Below are positions 15,781 to 48,106 of a DNA stretch of 64,000 nt, one piece after another. Position numbers and translations under genes: made by a program. The notes beneath the pieces are model-generated. The model was not told the origin of the DNA, searched no databases, and saw nothing but the letters and a program-made list of their open reading frames with translations. Source of the DNA: Ruegeria sp. TM1040 (lineage in GTDB: Bacteria; Pseudomonadota; Alphaproteobacteria; Rhodobacterales; Rhodobacteraceae); NCBI RefSeq assembly GCF_000014065.1, contig NC_008043.1, positions 366,001 to 430,000 of the forward strand, in the 5' to 3' direction. Position 1 is the stretch's first letter. Each line of letters opens with the position of its first letter.

Positions 15781-17009
15781 GTCAGCCCGGCCTTGGTCAG
15801 GATGTCAGGCAAGCGCTTTTTGACCTTGAAAAACCCGGCCGTTGCATGTGGCCACACCAGCCCGTCCCAATCCCGTTGCCATTCCGCTACCGCGACCCCC
15901 CGAGCCCGCAACAAAGGCAGCGCCCGCGCAATCCAGTCTCCCAGCGGGCCGACCGTTGCATAGGGCATGAAGATCTGCTGCGCCCCAATCGACTGCACCC
16001 AATCAGCCAGCGCCTCTGGCTCCGACGCCGCCCAGGGCTGTGCATCCAGACCTATGCGCGCAACGGTATCTGCCAGAGCATCCTCCTCGAATGTTGACAC
16101 GGCGGCGGCCACCCTGCGTGGCGAGCGCAGGTGACTGCAATATAGGCGTGCCGCCCCCCGAATATCCAGTGACGCAAGATCCGCTGACGCAGGCATACAG
16201 TCTTCTTCGGTCAAAAGAACCGCAGTCGGCTTTGCTTCTTCAGGGGAGAGGACAGATCGCAAGGGGTTCACGTGCGGAAGCCCCTCTGGTTCTTCGTCCA
16301 TCAGGCCAGTCACTTCTGTTGCGAGCTCACTCTCCTGGGGCGCAAATCGCCCACCACTGAACCGCGCGATATTCGAGGCTTGCGCCACGTAGGGCTTGCC
16401 CCGCGTATGAAGTCCTGCCACCCAGCGCCACGAACAAGTGTTCGACGCGGGGTCGCCGTCCAGCAAGTGTCGAAGGAAGAAATCTGCTCCCAACCGCCAC
16501 GGCAGCTTGAGCGTGAAGATCCAAAGCGACGCAAACCACATCCGCGCGTGATTGTGCAGATACCCTGTGCGCACCAGCTCCTTGGCCCAGGTATCGAAAT
16601 AGGCAAGACCGGTCTCACCCGTTTCTGCAGCATTCACGCGTATCGCCAACCCCGGATCCTCTTCAAGGGCGACGAAGTCCGCATCGCGCCCGGTGATATA
16701 GTTTGCCCAGACCTCCGGTCGCCGCTCCATCCATCCCTTGAAATAGCCGCGCCACAGGACTTCTTGGACGAATTTGTCTGCCTCCTGAGGTCCGTGTGCC
16801 GCCAAGGCTGCCGCAATCACTTCCGGCTCGGTCAGGAGGCGACGGCGAAGATAGGGCGATAACATCGACACAGCGCTTTGACGTTGAGGCCCATAGTCAT
16901 GGTTGCGAAATGTCGCGTAGTTGAGCCCCATGCGCGGCGTGAATGCCTCCATTCGCAGCAGAGCTTCGGCGCGTGTCGCGGGGCCTATTTGCGGTTCTTG
17001 TGTTGCCAT
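15777..17009 (-). CDS. Photolyase-like FAD-binding protein with permuted layout
   Basis: A 410-residue protein. Residues about 20-240 resemble the FAD-binding half of DNA photolyases and cryptochromes: the LSPYLRRRLLTEPEV helix, FVQEVLWRGYFKGWMERRPEVW, RTGYLHNHARMWFASLW, and TCSWRWVAGLHTRGKPY. Residues about 255-400 look like an alpha/beta domain (TAVLLTEEDC, WVQSIGAQQIFMPYATVGPL). In normal photolyases the alpha/beta antenna domain comes first; here it follows the FAD half, so the order is permuted or the C-terminal domain is different. The gene overlaps the ABC1 kinase gene by 4 nt. DNA repair, photoreception or flavin redox work are all possible. Confidence 0.75.
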   Translation of the reverse strand: MATQEPQIGPATRAEALLRMEAFTPRMGLNYATFRNHDYGPQRQSAVSMLSPYLRRRLLTEPEVIAAALAAHGPQEADKFVQEVLWRGYFKGWMERRPEVWANYITGRDADFVALEEDPGLAIRVNAAETGETGLAYFDTWAKELVRTGYLHNHARMWFASLWIFTLKLPWRLGADFFLRHLLDGDPASNTCSWRWVAGLHTRGKPYVAQASNIARFSGGRFAPQESELATEVTGLMDEEPEGLPHVNPLRSVLSPEEAKPTAVLLTEEDCMPASADLASLDIRGAARLYCSHLRSPRRVAAAVSTFEEDALADTVARIGLDAQPWAASEPEALADWVQSIGAQQIFMPYATVGPLGDWIARALPLLRARGVAVAEWQRDWDGLVWPHATAGFFKVKKRLPDILTKAGLT

Positions 17010-17221: not shown

Positions 17222-19885
17222 ATGCACGCCCACAGGACGAGCAAGGAAACCCCAGACGTGAGTGTCACCCGGGAGAGACCGGGCCCCGTTTTATGCAACG
17301 CCCTCGACATCCTCGATGAAGGCTTTGTGCTCTTTGATCGCGACCGCAAGCTGGTGTTTGCCAACAAGAGCTACGCCGCGATGCTCGGCCCGCATGCACA
17401 TCTTCTGGAACCAGGCCGCGCCATGCAGGAAATCATCAGCCAGGCAGTCGCAAGTGGCCATATCAGGATCCTGCGCGGCGCAGAGCAGGGCATGCCAGCA
17501 TTCTTGGCCGCGCTCGGCACACTAGATAGCGCCACGATCGAGATTTCGGTCAAAGACGGCACCCAGCGCGAGATCAACCTGACCTGTCTGGAAGATGGCC
17601 ACCTTGTCGCCAAGGTCAAAGACGTGACCGAGCAGCGCACGGCAGAGGCGCGCGCACGCACGCTTCTGAACAAGGCGATCGACGCGGTTGATTTTGGGAT
17701 CGCACTCACCGACGAAAACGACAGGCTTGTCTTTGCCAACCAGAAGTATCGCGAAGTCGCAGATCCCGATGGCGCCCTCCTTGAACCTGGTAGGCACATC
17801 GTCGAGGCCTATTCACAGGCCATCGAGACCGGCGTTTTCCAACTGCCCGAAGGTAGCACTGCGGCTGAGATCCTGTCAGAGCTGCAAGACCTGATTGGAA
17901 GTGCGGCGAAGGGATTTTCACTCACCAGTTCTACCGGACGCGAGATCGTCGGCAACATCTACGAGACTGACCTCGGAGGTAAGCTGCTGACGTTGGAAGA
18001 TGTGACCGATCAGTTGCGGGCCGAACGGCTATACACGGATGCGGTTGGGCGGCTGCCGGTTGGCGTCGCCATTGAGGAAGCATCGGGGACGCTGTCCCAC
18101 TGCAACAACGCCTTTGCCGAACCTTTCGGACATTCCGCAGAAGACTTGATGAAACTCAGCGATACCGAGCGTTTCTTGTCCCTTGCGCCTATGATCCAAT
18201 CCATCGCGGGACAGGATGTTGGCACGCGCGGAGTCGAAATCTTTAGCGCCGCGATTAAAAAGCAGAGAGACACCCTGCAGCCGATGGAGGTCTGTTTTAG
18301 AAACGGGCGCCATTTCCTCGTGGAGCGCGCGATAACCGAGGGCGACGGTCGCGTGGTCGTAGTCACGGAAACCACGGCATTGAAAGAAGCAGAACGACGG
18401 AGTCTCGAGACCCTGACCGATACGATCCAGTCCTTGGAGGAGGGGCTTGTCGTCTTTGACAGCGATGCGGGGTTCTTGCTCGGCAACCGGCGCTGGCGGG
18501 ATCTGTTCTTCGGCGATACTTCCGAGCCCGCCCCCGGCGAGCGGGTCTCGATGCTCTGGCAGCGCCTGGTATGCGCCGGTGCGATCTGCACACCCGCAGG
18601 CACCACGCCCGAGGCCTACGCCCAGCAACTCGACCAGTTCACTCAATCACTGGGGCAGAACGAAACTCTGTTTCTGCGCGACGGGAAAACTCTTCTTGTT
18701 TCAGCACATAGGACCGAGCAGCAGGGCTTTTTGCTCACCTTCGTGGATGTCACCGAACAAAGACGCGCCGAAGCGGAGCAGCGCGAAGCGGACCTATTGC
18801 TGCGCAAGATCGTCGATGCATGCCCTGCCAACTTTCTTGTCTCGCGGGTCGACGATGGCAAGATCATCTATTGCCCTCCGCCGTCGCGCGAACGCTTTGG
18901 CAACATCACCTCGACCCTCAGCTTTTTCCTGAACGCAGAAGACCGCCAGACATATCTTGATGCTTTGTTGCCCACTGGCGCGCTTGATGATTACCGCGTC
19001 CAGTTTCGCCGCGCCGATGGCTCGATCATGCAGGGCATCACGGCTGCGCGGGTCACCGAATACAAGGGCGAGCAAGTGATCGTCTCCTCTACGCGGGACA
19101 TCTCTGATCTGCTTGCGATGCAGGAAGAGCTGCAGCAACAGCGTGATGCCGCGCATCAAGCCGAAAAGCTATCAGCGCTGGGGGAGCTGCTCGCTGGGGT
19201 TGCCCATGAGCTGAACAATCCACTGTCCATTATTGTGGGATATGCACAAATGCTAGAGGGCCGCCTTCAGGACAAGGTGCTCTCCAAACGCGTGGACCGG
19301 ATCGCCGAAGCGGCGGACCGCAGTGCGCGGATCGTGCGCGCGTTCCTTGCCATGGCGCGGCAACGCCCAACCAAGATCGAACCGTGCTCGCTCAACGACA
19401 TCGTACTCGCCGCACTCGATGTTGCTGGATACGGAATGCGCAGCAGCGGGACCGAGATCCTTTCTGAACTTGATGACGACCTGCCCTTGGTTTCGGGGGA
19501 CGCCGACCAGCTTGTGCAGGTGTTCTCCAACCTCATCATCAACGCTGAACAAGCGCTGGCGCCCCTTGGACAGGCCGGCCGCCTGACGATCCGGTCGTCC
19601 TTTGACCCGGCGCAGAACCAATCGGTCGTGGAAATTCGTGACAATGGCCCCGGCATACCCGCCGCGATCAGGGCGCGGATATTCGAGCCCTTCTTCACAA
19701 CCAAGGATGTCGGAAAAGGCACCGGGATCGGCCTCGCCTTCAGCCACCGGATCGTCGATGCCCATGGCGGCCAGCTGGATCTTGAGACGACCGAGGGGGA
19801 AGGCACGCGCTTCTTTGTGCGCCTTGGTGTTCATGACACAGGCAGACCGCTGAAAAATGATCCCGAAGACGACACAACCCCATAA
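17222..19885 (+). CDS. Multi-PAS sensor histidine kinase (hybrid kinase cut by TAA)
   Basis: An 887-residue cytoplasmic kinase: about five PAS-like domains (roughly 25-130, 150-260, 270-390, 395-515, 520-640), a HisKA domain with H662 in GVAHELNNPLSI, and a HATPase domain with NLIINAEQAL, RDNGPGIP and GTGIGLAFSH. No membrane segment is visible. The start is the ATG with GAGG nine bases upstream; the frame is open further upstream without a better start. The kinase ends at a TAA (19883-19885), but the same frame continues directly into a complete receiver domain, so the ancestor was probably one hybrid kinase. It is followed by an OmpR-type response regulator. Confidence 0.9.
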   Translation: MHAHRTSKETPDVSVTRERPGPVLCNALDILDEGFVLFDRDRKLVFANKSYAAMLGPHAHLLEPGRAMQEIISQAVASGHIRILRGAEQGMPAFLAALGTLDSATIEISVKDGTQREINLTCLEDGHLVAKVKDVTEQRTAEARARTLLNKAIDAVDFGIALTDENDRLVFANQKYREVADPDGALLEPGRHIVEAYSQAIETGVFQLPEGSTAAEILSELQDLIGSAAKGFSLTSSTGREIVGNIYETDLGGKLLTLEDVTDQLRAERLYTDAVGRLPVGVAIEEASGTLSHCNNAFAEPFGHSAEDLMKLSDTERFLSLAPMIQSIAGQDVGTRGVEIFSAAIKKQRDTLQPMEVCFRNGRHFLVERAITEGDGRVVVVTETTALKEAERRSLETLTDTIQSLEEGLVVFDSDAGFLLGNRRWRDLFFGDTSEPAPGERVSMLWQRLVCAGAICTPAGTTPEAYAQQLDQFTQSLGQNETLFLRDGKTLLVSAHRTEQQGFLLTFVDVTEQRRAEAEQREADLLLRKIVDACPANFLVSRVDDGKIIYCPPPSRERFGNITSTLSFFLNAEDRQTYLDALLPTGALDDYRVQFRRADGSIMQGITAARVTEYKGEQVIVSSTRDISDLLAMQEELQQQRDAAHQAEKLSALGELLAGVAHELNNPLSIIVGYAQMLEGRLQDKVLSKRVDRIAEAADRSARIVRAFLAMARQRPTKIEPCSLNDIVLAALDVAGYGMRSSGTEILSELDDDLPLVSGDADQLVQVFSNLIINAEQALAPLGQAGRLTIRSSFDPAQNQSVVEIRDNGPGIPAAIRARIFEPFFTTKDVGKGTGIGLAFSHRIVDAHGGQLDLETTEGEGTRFFVRLGVHDTGRPLKNDPEDDTTP

Positions 19886-20266
19886 GCGCTCAGACGCGTA
19901 CTGGTTGTCGATGACGAAGAAACCGTCGGAGAGCTGATCTGCGAAATGCTCGAAGACCTGCGATGTGTGCCTACGCTCGCGACCGACGCCCGTGCCGCAC
20001 TCGGGGTGTTGGAGCAGGACGGGTTTGATATGATCGTGAGTGATTTCAAGATGCCCGGCATGAATGGTGCGGAGTTCTACGATGCCCTTCTCAACCGACA
20101 TCCACAGTATGCGGACAGGGTCGGATTCGTGACCGGCGATGCACTCAGCGAGGACATCTTTCGTTTTCTATCCAAAGTCGGACGACCCCACATCGAAAAG
20201 CCAATCCTGCGCGATGACCTCTCCGCGCTCCTTGAGCGCCTGACGTGCAAAGGAGTGAACGGATGA
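19886..20266 (+). pseudogene. Receiver domain separated from its kinase by an in-frame stop
   Basis: This is a complete receiver domain in the same frame as the kinase: acidic pair in VLVVDDEE (19910-19915), phospho-acceptor Asp in IVSDFKMPGMNG (codon 20042-20044), and the lysine in EKPI. It begins right after the kinase TAA with no ATG, GTG or TTG before the acidic pair; the first ATG (19946) would delete that pair. A functional domain would need stop readthrough, initiation at CTG (19901) or a sequencing error in the TAA (CAA would restore fusion). Its stop overlaps the next ATG as ATGA, which suggests the fused frame was translated until recently. Confidence 0.75.
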
Positions 20267-20979
20267 CGCACGCAGCCGAAGCAAAGAGAATTCTGGTCTG
20301 TGACGATGAACATCACCTGCGAGAGATGTTGTCGGAGTACCTCTGCGAAAGAGGTTACGAGGTGATGGAAGCGGAAAACGCCGATGCCATGCTTGCTGTC
20401 TTCAACGACGACACCCCCGATGTGGTGGTTCTGGACATCAATATGCCCGGAACGGATGGGCTGACGGCGCTGCGTACGTTGAGGGTCAACTCGACGATCC
20501 CGGTGATCATGCTCTCCGCCGCAGGAGAGGTGGTTGATCGGATCGTCGGGTTGGAAATGGGCGCGGATGATTATCTGGCAAAGCCGGTTGACCTGCGCGA
20601 GCTTGAGGCGCGCATCAAGGCGGCGTTGCGGCGCCAGGGTTTTGCCGGGGAGGAAAGCGCGCAAAGGGATCGAATGACGGGCACCGTTCCCTTTGGCATG
20701 TGTCGTCTAGACCTCGACGGCGCCAAGCTTTTTGGAGAGAGCGGCGAAGAGATCGCTATAACATCCATGGAGTTCAGCCTACTTCGCGTTTTTGCTCAGA
20801 ACCGGGGACGTGTGCTGAATAGGGATCAATTGCTTGAACAGGCGCATGACCGCGGGTGGGAACATTTTGACCGCTCGATCGATCTGCGGATCTCACGCCT
20901 GAGGCGCAAGATCGAGCAAAACCCCACGAAGCCCGAAACCATCCGAACCGTCCGCGGGATCGGCTATATCTTTGACTGA
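20263..20979 (+). CDS. OmpR/PhoB-family response regulator
   Basis: A 238-residue regulator: receiver domain (ILVCDDEHHLREML acidic pocket, phospho-acceptor in VVLDINMPGTDG, Lys in AKPVD) and a C-terminal winged helix (MEFSLLRVFAQNRGRVLNRDQLLEQAHD, RSIDLRISRLRRKIE, IRTVRGIGYIFD). The start ATG overlaps the preceding receiver frame by 4 nt, so it depends on translation reaching that point. It is the likely output partner of the PAS kinase, originally a kinase-REC to regulator relay. Confidence 0.92.
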   Translation: MTHAAEAKRILVCDDEHHLREMLSEYLCERGYEVMEAENADAMLAVFNDDTPDVVVLDINMPGTDGLTALRTLRVNSTIPVIMLSAAGEVVDRIVGLEMGADDYLAKPVDLRELEARIKAALRRQGFAGEESAQRDRMTGTVPFGMCRLDLDGAKLFGESGEEIAITSMEFSLLRVFAQNRGRVLNRDQLLEQAHDRGWEHFDRSIDLRISRLRRKIEQNPTKPETIRTVRGIGYIFD

Positions 20980-21082: not shown

Positions 21083-22558
21083 TTAGGCGATCACAAAGAC
21101 GTCGCTCTCGGTGAGATCAATGTAACCCAGCAAGGTCAGTGAAAGATCTGCCTCATGTCCGATGTCGTCTCGCAGGTAAACATGCGTGACCGCACCGAAC
21201 TCGTCGCTCACCGTCTGCTCGAAGTAGGCTTCGGCTCCAACTCCACCCGAGAAACCATCGCCTCCACGCCAGGTCGTCGCGCCAAACCCTTGAAAGACCA
21301 TGAGATCCCCGCCACCAGCCGAAAAGTCCTGAATTACATCGCGAGGACCACCGTTGGCACCACTGTCCCCGAAGTCGAAGTAGAACAGATCATACCCCTC
21401 GCCGCCGAACAGATAGTCGCCGATGTCACCGGCAGAGTTGGTCCCACCATAAATATGGTCATTGCCACCACCGCCCTGAATGTAGTCGTTGCCACCGTCA
21501 CCGTAGATGAAATCGCTGCCTTCGCCACCGCGCATGATGTCGTTGCCGGCGCCACCCTCCATAGTGTCATTGCCGGTCCCGCCATTCAGCTCGTCATTGC
21601 CAAGGTCGCCAGTCATCATGTCGTTGCCGCTGCCGCCGTTGATGAGGTCGTTCCCCTGATCGCCAACCAGCACATCGGCTCCACCACCGCCTTCCATATG
21701 ATCGTTGCCAAGCCCACCTTGCAGCAGGTCATTGCCTATGCCGCCAAAAACTTGGTCATCCCCATCGCCGCCCAACATGGTGTCGCGGCCCTCATCGCCC
21801 CACATAAGGTCATTGTCGTCACCGCCCTCGATGAAATCGTCACCGTCTCCGGCACGCACGACGTCGCGACCTTCTTCTCCGAGGATCCGGTCATTGCCGT
21901 CGCCGCCGTTGATCATGTCATTGCCACGGCCACCTTGAAGCCTGTCATTTCCACTGCCACCGTCGATGGTGTCACTACCGACATCGCCGATGATGAAGTC
22001 ATTGCCAATCCCGCCATAGAGCGCATCATTGCCGCGGCCACCATGAAGCAGGTCATTCCCCGCACCTCCATAGGCGACATCGTTGCCATCGTAGAGGTAG
22101 ATGTCATCGTCACCCCAAAGGCCCCAGGCCTTGTCGACCCCATGCGTGCCTTCGAATGCGTTCTCGCCATTCCAATCGATCCAGATGTTGCCGGGCGTTA
22201 TGTTCAAACCATTGGCCAGGCCGGGCGTTAGAAAGCCGGGCTCAGCCAGGTTGGTATCAAAGCGCGTAAAAATATTGGCGCTGACCGACATCGACGGAGG
22301 CCCATCATTGCCGCCACGATCTGGGTCCCGATCGTCCCCGCGATCCGGCGTGTCAGACCCGCCTGTGTCGCGCCCATCATTTGTCTCGGTATCGGGCTGG
22401 GTGTCACCACGCGAAATAGGATCGGTCTCTTCAACCGGATCGCGCTGCGTTTCGGCGTCCCCGCGCGAGGGGTCGCTGGAGTCGCTCGGCTCCACGAGGC
22501 CCTTCTTGGCATTCCACCCCAATACATTCGAAAATGGTTTCAACAGTTTAATCGTCAT
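21083..22558 (-). CDS. RTX (haemolysin-type calcium-binding) repeat protein
   Basis: A 491-residue secreted-type protein without an N-terminal signal peptide. After a short basic start, residues 24-88 form an Asp/Glu/Ser/Pro-rich linker (repeated DPD, RGD and GDT pieces). Residues about 158-390 hold some two dozen GGxGxDxhx nonapeptides that bind Ca2+ in a beta-roll. The C-terminus (residues 400-491: VIQDFSAGGGDLMVF, then TESDVFVIA) fits a type I secretion signal region. No catalytic domain is recognisable. AAAGGA is 9 nt before the ATG. No ABC/MFP/TolC genes lie in the window, so export relies on a distant secretion system. Confidence 0.9.
   Translation of the reverse strand: MTIKLLKPFSNVLGWNAKKGLVEPSDSSDPSRGDAETQRDPVEETDPISRGDTQPDTETNDGRDTGGSDTPDRGDDRDPDRGGNDGPPSMSVSANIFTRFDTNLAEPGFLTPGLANGLNITPGNIWIDWNGENAFEGTHGVDKAWGLWGDDDIYLYDGNDVAYGGAGNDLLHGGRGNDALYGGIGNDFIIGDVGSDTIDGGSGNDRLQGGRGNDMINGGDGNDRILGEEGRDVVRAGDGDDFIEGGDDNDLMWGDEGRDTMLGGDGDDQVFGGIGNDLLQGGLGNDHMEGGGGADVLVGDQGNDLINGGSGNDMMTGDLGNDELNGGTGNDTMEGGAGNDIMRGGEGSDFIYGDGGNDYIQGGGGNDHIYGGTNSAGDIGDYLFGGEGYDLFYFDFGDSGANGGPRDVIQDFSAGGGDLMVFQGFGATTWRGGDGFSGGVGAEAYFEQTVSDEFGAVTHVYLRDDIGHEADLSLTLLGYIDLTESDVFVIA
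21383..22090 (-). repeat. RTX nonapeptide-encoding tandem repeat
   Basis: Degenerate 27-bp units encoding GGxGNDxhx occur back to back over about 700 bp of the RTX gene. The low complexity leaves long open frames on the opposite strand with no coding sense of their own. Such repeats can change copy number by slippage or recombination. Confidence 0.85.
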
Positions 22559-23008
22559 CTGGTTCGTCCTTTCACCCAAATACGGACCCGGCGGAGACAG
22601 CGACTCTTCGACAAGATGTGCCACCGGACATGACCGGCATTCTGCTGTTTTTGTGTATCGGCAGACGTTCACCAGCGCAGAGATTTGTAAGTGTTGTGTC
22701 AGCAATCCCGCCAAGAGACGGCGTTCTGATACAATTGACATGTTCCAAATCGCGCGTGGAACAGAAGGACGTGATCGCTGATCTGCCATGGCCTGCTCAG
22801 GCGTGAATCGCCTGTACCAAGACGGAGCTTTCGAGAGCTCGGTGCGCGCTTGATCGGCCCTCGCCTGCCTCGTGGCGCCCGCTACGCTGAGCGGCCATAA
22901 CGCTGCTGAGCGCGCCAGATGTCGAATCTGAAATCAATCTTGTCCAAAACCGAACGGGTATTTGAGACCAGATCTCCTGTTAATGCGAGCATGCACACAG
23001 GAGCCCGC
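22559..23008. other. Divergent non-coding region between RTX and soxB
   Basis: About 450 bp with no convincing gene. It must hold the promoters of the leftward RTX gene and the rightward sox operon. Small hairpins are visible: CAGGCG-TGAAT-CGCCTG (22798-22814), and GAGCT with AGCTC near 22830. The inverted repeat at 22741-22763 is listed separately. Confidence 0.6.
22735..22763. promoter_or_regulatory. Operator-like inverted repeat next to TTGACA
   Basis: TGTTCCA (22741-22747) and TGGAACA (22757-22763) form a perfect 7-bp inverted repeat with a 9-nt spacer. It directly follows TTGACA (22735-22740), a consensus -35. The size fits a dimeric helix-turn-helix regulator site. Which gene it controls is unclear. 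Confidence 0.4.
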
Positions 23009-29104: not shown

Positions 29105-30012
29105 CAGGAGTGCCTCATCACCGTGTCCCGCGAAATCTCTTTCGCGATTTGCAGAATGTGCCGCTCTAGCAAGCGCGCCGCAGGAGATTGATTCGAATCC
29201 GCTCGCCGCAACATGTGAATTTCCCGTTTTGCATGCGGCTCCGTGAGTGGACGGAACACGAGCCCTGCCGAATTTGAGGCTCGAACCGCCATTTCAGGCA
29301 GAATCGTGATCCCGATGTTGGCCTGCACCATCCCAAGGATCGAAGTGAGGTTGTGGGCCGAAAGCATCGCCCGATCGTGTAACGCGACCGAAGCCGCGGC
29401 ACTTATCCCAGCCGAAAGAGAATTCGCAATGAGCCGTTCATCGGCTAGTGCCTCCCATGTGACGGGACCGGTGCTGTCCGCCAGTTCATGCGAAGGTGCG
29501 CAGATCACCCCAAAGGTGTCAGACAGAAGATGCTGGCTGCTTAGTCCGGCGCCTTGCTGTCCCAGAGTCGCGATACCGATGTCGATCCGATCACGGGACA
29601 GCTCATGGAGAATGGAATGAGAATCCATATCGCGCAGCTCAATGTCGACATTCACGTAGTCGTTGATATGGCGTGAAAAAACCTGGGGGATGATCGTACC
29701 GGCCACAGAGGGCACAGTGGCTATGCGCACATGGCCATGCGTGGCCTTGGCGAAGCCCTCGATCGCTCGGACCATATTGTCAAACTGCTGCAACTCGCGC
29801 TCGGCCTGCTCCAGCACAAACGCACCCAGTGCGGTCAACTTGCTTTTGCGGTCGGTTTCAAACAGCGGCTCACCCAAATGCGTCTCCAACTGCTTCAGCA
29901 TCATGGAGACAGCTGAGGGCGTACGTCCCAACACCTGAGCCGCATCACTCAGGTTTCCACTTCGGGCAACGGTGGCAAAACCACGGAGCATTTCGATTTT
30001 GAGCGCCATCAC
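29104..30012 (-). CDS. LysR-family transcriptional regulator
   Basis: A 302-residue LysR regulator: N-terminal winged helix (EMLRGFATVARSGNLSDAAQVLGRTPSAVSMMLKQLE) and a substrate-binding domain. It is divergent from the aldehyde dehydrogenase gene, so it most likely controls the 30.1-37.7 kb operon, and it is coupled to the GlxA-type regulator. The operon therefore has two candidate regulators. Confidence 0.9.
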   Translation of the reverse strand: MMALKIEMLRGFATVARSGNLSDAAQVLGRTPSAVSMMLKQLETHLGEPLFETDRKSKLTALGAFVLEQAERELQQFDNMVRAIEGFAKATHGHVRIATVPSVAGTIIPQVFSRHINDYVNVDIELRDMDSHSILHELSRDRIDIGIATLGQQGAGLSSQHLLSDTFGVICAPSHELADSTGPVTWEALADERLIANSLSAGISAAASVALHDRAMLSAHNLTSILGMVQANIGITILPEMAVRASNSAGLVFRPLTEPHAKREIHMLRRADSNQSPAARLLERHILQIAKEISRDTVMRHS

Positions 30013-46496: not shown

Positions 46497-47338
46497 TCTG
46501 CTGCCTCTGTCACCTGTCGCTGCACACCGAGCCCCGCGATCCCCAGCTCCATCACGTCACCGGGTTTCAGGTAGGTCTCGGGCGTTTGCCCCATGCCAAC
46601 GCCCGGCGGCGTACCGGTTGAAATTACGTCACCCGGTTGCAAGCTCATGAATTGCGACAGATGCGAGATCACCGTGGCCACATCAAAATGCATCGTCCGG
46701 GTGGACCCGTCCTGGTAGCGATGCCCATTGACCTCGAGCCACATCGCCAGGTTCTGCGGATCTGGGACCTCGTCGCGGGTCACCAACCAGGGGCCGATAG
46801 GACCAAATGTATCAGCGGATTTGCCCTTTACCCATTGGCCGGAGCGATGCAGTTGAAAGTCACGCTCCGAGAGATCATTCACCACGCAGTAGCCCGCAAC
46901 GTGATCCAGCGCCTCATCTCGGCCAATGTATTTCGCCGTCTTTCCGATCACCACGCCCAGTTCCACTTCCCAGTCGGTCTTGACCGAGGTTCGCGGAATT
47001 TCGACAGCATCGTTGGGCCCGCAGATAGCAGAGGTCGCCTTGAAGAAGATCACCGGCTCCTCAGGCAGGCTCATGCCGCTTTCGGCGGCATGGTCTGCGT
47101 AGTTCAAACCGATGCAGATGAATTTTCCAACCTGTCCGACACAAGCGCCGATCCGAGGCGTGCCCTCGACCAGAGGCAAGCTCTGGGGATCAAGAGCGCG
47201 CAGGGCATCGAGACCCGCATCACCGAGCGTCGCAGCGCCAATATCTGCAACCTGCCCGGAGAGGTCGCGGATATTGCCGTCCTGATCAAGGAGTCCGGGT
47301 TTTTCCTGACCCAAAGGGCCATATCGCAGCAATTTCAT
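46493..47338 (-). CDS. FAH-family 2,4-diketo-3-deoxy-L-fuconate hydrolase
   Basis: A 281-residue FAH-fold hydrolase: FICIGLNYADHAAESG, VKTDWEVELGVVIG (E-x-E metal ligands), VNDLSERDFQLHR and STGTPPGVGMGQTP. In fucose clusters this enzyme cleaves 2,4-diketo-3-deoxy-L-fuconate to pyruvate and L-lactate. Overlap with the dehydratase gene and proximity to the SDR gene support that role. Confidence 0.88.
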   Translation of the reverse strand: MKLLRYGPLGQEKPGLLDQDGNIRDLSGQVADIGAATLGDAGLDALRALDPQSLPLVEGTPRIGACVGQVGKFICIGLNYADHAAESGMSLPEEPVIFFKATSAICGPNDAVEIPRTSVKTDWEVELGVVIGKTAKYIGRDEALDHVAGYCVVNDLSERDFQLHRSGQWVKGKSADTFGPIGPWLVTRDEVPDPQNLAMWLEVNGHRYQDGSTRTMHFDVATVISHLSQFMSLQPGDVISTGTPPGVGMGQTPETYLKPGDVMELGIAGLGVQRQVTEAAE

Positions 47339-47356
47339 GTGAAGTAACTCCTGTCG

Positions 47357-48106
47357 TCAAATCGCCCAGCCGCCGTCGATGGCGTGGGTCTGTCCAGTGG
47401 TAAAGCCGCTCTCATCGCTGGCGAGATAGAGCGCGAGCGCCGCAATCTCTTCAGCCTTGCCAATGCGCCCCATGGGCTGACGTGCGATGAAATCCTTGCG
47501 GGCCTGCTCATAATCGCCCGTAGCGCGCAGCCGATCATGCAGGCTGGGACTGTCCACCGTGCCGGGGCAAATCGCGTTGCAACGGATACCTTGGGTCACA
47601 AAATCTGCGGCAATGGATTTGGTCATGCCGATCACCGCCGCCTTTGACGCGCAATAGGCAAAGCGATTTGGCACCCCTTTCAGGGAGGAGGCCACCGACG
47701 ACATGTTGATGATAGAGCCACCGCCGTTTTCCAGCATGCCGGGCAAAACCAGTTTCGTGAGGCGATACATGGCTTTGACGTTGAGGTCGAAACTGAAGTC
47801 CCAGTCGTTCTCATCGCAGTCCAAAATGCTGCCACTTGCGACATATCCCGCGCAGTTGAACAACACATTCAATGGCCCTGCATCTTGGATTGCGCGCGCA
47901 ACTGCGGATGCATCCGTGACATCAAGCGCAAGGGCCGTGATCCCATCGACCTCCGCGAGTTCTGCCAATGACTCTGCATTGATGTCGCAGGCGATCACCT
48001 TGGCGCCCTCAGCCGCAAAGAGTTCCGCGCTGGCGCGACCGATCCCCTGCCCCGCAGCAGTAATCAAAGCTGTTTTTTCGGCCAGCCGGCCTGTGTTCTG
48101 TGTCAT
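47357..48106 (-). CDS. SDR, probable 2-keto-3-deoxy-L-fuconate 4-dehydrogenase
   Basis: A 249-residue short-chain dehydrogenase: cofactor motif LITAAGQGIGRA, NCAGYV, catalytic Ser in NMSSVAS, YCASK with Tyr and Lys, and ICPGTVDSPS. It would oxidise 2-keto-3-deoxy-L-fuconate to the 2,4-diketo acid with NAD+. The ATG at 48106 begins the conserved part; an open frame upstream has no SDR character. Confidence 0.88.
   Translation of the reverse strand: MTQNTGRLAEKTALITAAGQGIGRASAELFAAEGAKVIACDINAESLAELAEVDGITALALDVTDASAVARAIQDAGPLNVLFNCAGYVASGSILDCDENDWDFSFDLNVKAMYRLTKLVLPGMLENGGGSIINMSSVASSLKGVPNRFAYCASKAAVIGMTKSIAADFVTQGIRCNAICPGTVDSPSLHDRLRATGDYEQARKDFIARQPMGRIGKAEEIAALALYLASDESGFTTGQTHAIDGGWAI

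Follow-up and report, generated by a model that had tools for sequence, protein, structure and literature searches.

An in-frame stop codon between the kinase and receiver of a hybrid-type histidine kinase gene in Ruegeria sp. TM1040

The described systems closest to the locus presented here are VirA/VirG of Agrobacterium and RsbK of Bacillus cereus. In the excerpted text of PMC4705274 the receiver of VirA is reported to be dispensable for output, and its removal to alter the response; an excerpt of PMC4574943 reports that removing the C-terminal receiver of the hybrid kinase RsbK results in constitutive signalling. Among the literature matches listed (titles and the beginnings of abstracts) there was no case of a naturally occurring hybrid kinase separated from its receiver by a single stop codon.

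The window analysed is a stretch of 64,000 nucleotides from Ruegeria sp. TM1040 (NC_008043.1, positions 366,001 to 430,000), and all coordinates are given within it. A PAS-rich sensor histidine kinase (17222..19885, + strand) begins at ATG 17222, runs for 887 codons (887 aa) and ends at a TAA (19883–19885); the open frame extends upstream of this ATG, with its first start at 16943. Pfam matches upstream of the TAA comprise PAS_7 (three stretches), other PAS models, HisKA (1.5e-13) and HATPase_c (1.7e-24). The same frame resumes at 19886 and continues for 126 codons to a TGA (20264–20266). This segment (19886..20266, +), which is probably untranslated, matches Response_reg (3.3e-17) and has the acidic pair, phospho-Asp, Thr and Lys of a receiver domain all in place. 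A preliminary description of this DNA had reported the kinase stop, the resumption of its frame as an intact receiver, and the absence of ATG, GTG or TTG ahead of the acidic pair; the first two points were borne out by the frame and by Pfam, and the third by the position of the first such codon, ATG 19946, behind the pair. The protein thus has the HisKA and HATPase_c domains of a hybrid histidine kinase, but as sequenced the receiver is not part of the same polypeptide, the TAA at 19883–19885 lying in between. Judged by its sequence, the TM1040 kinase is derived from the hybrid histidine kinase family, yet as it stands is not a member of it. Nor does the locus have the make-up of a split system with a separate single-domain receiver gene, since the TM1040 receiver frame has no start of its own ahead of the acidic pair.

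Downstream lies an OmpR/PhoB-type response regulator (20263..20979, +; Pfam Response_reg and Trans_reg_C), the partner of the kinase by position. As previously claimed, the receiver frame overlaps this regulator as ATGA, the regulator ATG being at 20263 and the receiver TGA at 20264–20266. The regulator can be translated, since it possesses its own ribosome-binding site (AAAGGAG, 7 nt ahead of the ATG).

The position of the kinase end relative to the receiver match was compared across loci from three homologue searches. A single stop-free frame spans kinase and receiver in all 18 distinct same-family relatives in which the junction was read (16 distinct among 17 loci, L007 and L095 being the same contig, together with L112 and L113; L111 repeats L086), and an automatic rule based on kinase end and receiver match agrees that the same-family relatives are fused. 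Comparison of this codon in relatives had been set beforehand as a test, and a stop is present there in none of the 18. The TAA (19883..19885, +) is codon 20 of the kinase-receiver linker; the stretch from FFVRL to RRVLVV is exactly 22 codons long in TM1040 and in its three closest orthologues, where it consists of sense codons throughout. Because the linker has the same length in all of them, no rearrangement is needed. Together with the fused relatives, this means that one substitution in a fast-changing linker suffices, with no insertion or deletion, and that the ancestor was fused. The earlier proposal that one base change would restore a single protein is in accord with this linker. The locus shows what characterizes a nonsense truncation, namely relatives intact across the site, the absence of an indel and a homologous frame downstream. 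The same-family orthologues in G251, G438 and G451, whose kinases are 70–73% identical to that of TM1040, share with it the domain order, the 22-codon linker, a receiver overlapping the regulator start and a convergent RTX-repeat neighbour; they differ in that kinase and receiver are one protein with no stop.

Altogether, 37 loci are fused (36 distinct, counting L007 and L095 as one contig), of which 18 distinct ones belong to the bacterial family of TM1040. TM1040 aside, the receiver is separated from the kinase by a stop or a change of frame in L015, L019, L020, L023, L024, L036, L046, L049 and L082. These nine are distant kinases of other groups, only 32–39% identical to the query, and in 9/9 a start codon precedes the receiver match by 1–7 codons. 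The preliminary description had named homologues with a separate, well-started receiver gene as the case that would speak against it; such genes occur in distant kinases only, and in none of the same-family relatives read. For TM1040 a separate receiver gene was rejected, there being no start before the acidic pair and the same-family relatives read being fused. In L080 the fused receiver is followed by another one in a different frame. A further 60 entries (both strands and overlapping loci counted) had no receiver match within 350 bases, and L102 had no kinase end within the stretch compared.

The coding signal across the stop was assessed with a codon-use scan of the 318 adjacent in-frame pairs of open segments in the window, each segment being at least 40 codons long. 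The pairs were ordered by their weaker side and the best 15 of the 318 listed; the scan sees in-frame stops only and not indels. The kinase/receiver pair ranks first of 318, scoring 0.32 bits per codon over the 60 codons that lead up to the stop and 0.37 over the 60 that follow it, and has no start codon until codon 21 after the stop. By this measure codon use remains coding-like past the TAA. The second pair (0.31/0.33) looks like two ordinary genes because a start is present at its second codon. The third and fourth pairs (29545–29913 and 46622–47644, both +) reach 0.21–0.23 on both sides, have their first starts at codons 19 and 13, and are accompanied by longer open frames on the opposite strand; they are probably antisense shadows rather than further split genes.

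No decay of the receiver was found in its conserved columns or in tree distances to outgroups. Of the 26 columns that at least 15 of 17 relatives conserve, the TM1040 receiver retains 25 and has Val in place of Leu in the other. Of the 18 sequences aligned, 15 went into the LG+G4 trees; L091, L094 and L099 were left out on account of one badly extracted part. The mean tree distance of the TM1040 receiver to 11 outgroups is 2.39, compared with 2.57, 2.54 and 2.61 for its sisters; the corresponding values are 1.77 and 1.88–1.94 for the kinase part, and 1.23 and 1.23–1.42 for the regulator. Receiver and kinase branch lengths are 0.311/0.090 in TM1040 and 0.497/0.206, 0.465/0.237 and 0.535/0.256 in the sisters, the ratio being highest in TM1040 (ca. 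3.5 against 2.0–2.4). TM1040 and L111 are 60% identical in the receiver, 80% in the kinase part and 82% in the regulator; by comparison, the values for L111 and L112 are 75%, 85% and 79%. The high branch ratio and the lower receiver identity could reflect some older relaxation of the receiver. The ratio dN/dS was mostly unusable for this domain because synonymous sites are saturated. On these data, the simplest reading of the undecayed receiver would be that the stop is too young for decay or is not real; an undecayed receiver is equally expected from continued expression and from a sequence error.

We consider it probable that a recent nonsense mutation turned a linker codon of a hybrid histidine kinase into TAA, which would give a receiver-less kinase and leave the receiver untranslated; that it is recent is suggested by the undecayed state of the receiver. 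One substitution in the linker of the ancestral fused kinase would have produced the TAA. The product would most likely be the receiver-less kinase of 887 aa, and the receiver codons downstream would most likely no longer be translated. The short kinase may remain able to phosphorylate the OmpR-type regulator next to it, possibly under altered control, and we infer that in its truncated form it is able to signal to this regulator. Translational coupling to the regulator through the ATGA overlap may be weakened. Three options had been offered at the outset: nonsense mutation, programmed readthrough and assembly error. The nonsense mutation is favoured by what is observed, that is the stop as sequenced, the fused state and equal linker of the relatives and the undecayed receiver, and programmed readthrough gained no positive support.

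The main rival to a recent nonsense mutation is a one-base error in sequencing or assembly, in which case the gene would in reality encode an intact hybrid kinase. The surroundings of the stop are all intact, the same-family relatives are fused, and an undecayed receiver is exactly what such an error would give; we nevertheless regard it as unlikely, since the genome is in three contigs with 100% completeness, and no equally strong start-less continuation is present in the window among the best 15 of the 318 pairs, which cover in-frame stops only. In finished assemblies, lone substitution errors occur less often than indels, which also counts against this explanation. Programmed or otherwise biologically used readthrough of the UAA would yield two kinase forms, with and without the receiver, and would fit the intact, coding-like frame downstream of the stop. 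It appears most improbable given that the stop is not conserved in position (0/18 distinct same-family relatives have it) and that the RNA around it folds like its shuffles (three stretches of 80–81 nt; z 0.00, 0.57 and -0.43). UAA followed by G is not known to be a leaky context, and we count this against readthrough as well. No UAA anticodon was seen among 51 tRNA matches of the genome (48 loci and the window were decoded), an inventory that is incomplete, as it lacks the Tyr, Ile and Ala-UGC tRNAs.

Alternatively, ribosomes might re-initiate at a non-standard codon downstream of the stop and so produce the receiver as a small protein of its own. The receiver domain is intact, and separate, well-started receiver genes do exist in distant kinases, but none of the same-family relatives read has a separate receiver. 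No ATG, GTG or TTG precedes the acidic pair in TM1040, and the sole conceivable non-standard start ahead of it, CTG 19901, has no visible ribosome-binding site upstream and would presumably cut the first strand of the receiver domain. This makes re-initiation very doubtful. We likewise give hardly any credence to a combined version, in which low-level UAA readthrough or rare re-initiation would supply a little full-length kinase or free receiver next to an abundant receiver-less kinase and so set the gain of the regulator; if it were true, a leaky stop would here serve as a natural means of controlling a hybrid kinase.

At E <= 1e-100 the kinase was found only in TM1040 itself among 61 genomes (its own and 60 others, up to 15 candidates being scored in each), and at E <= 1e-70 the regulator was found only in TM1040 itself among 18 genomes of the genus, with all candidates scored. 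At these cut-offs neither occurs in any of the 17 other genomes of the genus. Since both are absent from the other genomes searched, the operon counts, within that set, as accessory to this species. A family draw of 394 genomes gave the kinase at E <= 1e-60 in at least 18 (2 candidates scored per genome) and the regulator at E <= 1e-72 in at least 15 (7 candidates scored), the own genome being included in both counts. In the genus of the best match the kinase is present in 3/25 genomes. A scan of genome contigs produced at least 80 loci, mostly distant kinases. Plasmid records yielded 7 matches, and since all are at 38% identity and none covers 80% of the query, there is no second copy of the kinase gene on these records. 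A second TM1040 kinase that had been flagged with one TGA inside its match was discarded, the match overrunning that gene's own terminator. In L104, L105 and L106 (G077:C42, G192:C33 and G258:C13) a second, shorter related kinase lies 8–11 kb from the hybrid kinase on the opposite strand, with an open frame of ca. 500–565 codons and no receiver match.

Convergent with the operon is a gene for an RTX calcium-binding repeat protein (21083..22789, - strand), and a convergent RTX gene is found in the three closest relatives too. At the cut-off applied, their outer flanks match none of the other genes in the window, save for one weak ABC-type match in L111. Four genomes (TM1040, L111, L112 and L113) carry kinase, regulator and convergent RTX-repeat gene as one block, whose outer flanks differ. 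With its differing flanks, and with kinase and regulator not found in the 17 other genomes of the genus, the block looks like a horizontally moved module. In a simple motif scan, RTX-like repeats were seen near the operon in 6/21 distinct relatives (G251, G438, G451, G166:C12, G395 and G232), most of the others being covered with only ca. 1.5 kb of flank. The RTX-repeat protein is a candidate target of the kinase/regulator system.

In two relatives, G166:C12 and G232, the kinase lies directly beside the regulator with no receiver. The kinase gene of the former (L115) ends in a TAG which overlaps the regulator start, and an RTX-repeat gene is located on the upstream side of the kinase; on sequence grounds this is the same type of module with the receiver missing. 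The kinase gene of G232 (L182, G232:C58:135500-141500; also L100) contains three in-frame TAG codons, each within CTAG, and no frameshift, and lies beside an intact OmpR-type regulator. Because of these stops G232 is a weak precedent for the short TM1040 kinase, and only G166:C12 is a clean one. With 23/23 HATPase matches in the G232 genome free of stops inside the matched domain, nothing points to recoding across that genome; the TAG codons of the kinase gene may stem from decay or from systematic errors in base calling.

If the mutation is real, TM1040 would be a strain in which a hybrid kinase has naturally lost the receiver that its relatives keep, and as such could help in asking what role these receivers play when the partner is an OmpR-type regulator. 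Apart from this, the locus would simply be a commonplace disrupted gene or an error in the sequence; it does not look like a new mechanism. It also serves as a caution, in that one stop codon can be all it takes for a stretch to appear in an annotation as if it were a truncated receiver gene of its own.

Set beside the described systems, TM1040 differs from RsbK, where removal of the receiver was experimental and the output pathway is a different one. It differs from VirA in that the receiver of the latter is still fused; this receiver helps to recruit VirG, a role that for the TM1040 receiver is only hypothetical. The likeness to VirA/VirG, as far as the excerpted text of PMC4705274 describes that system, lies in the pairing of a kinase with a C-terminal receiver and an OmpR-class regulator, with no HPt required.
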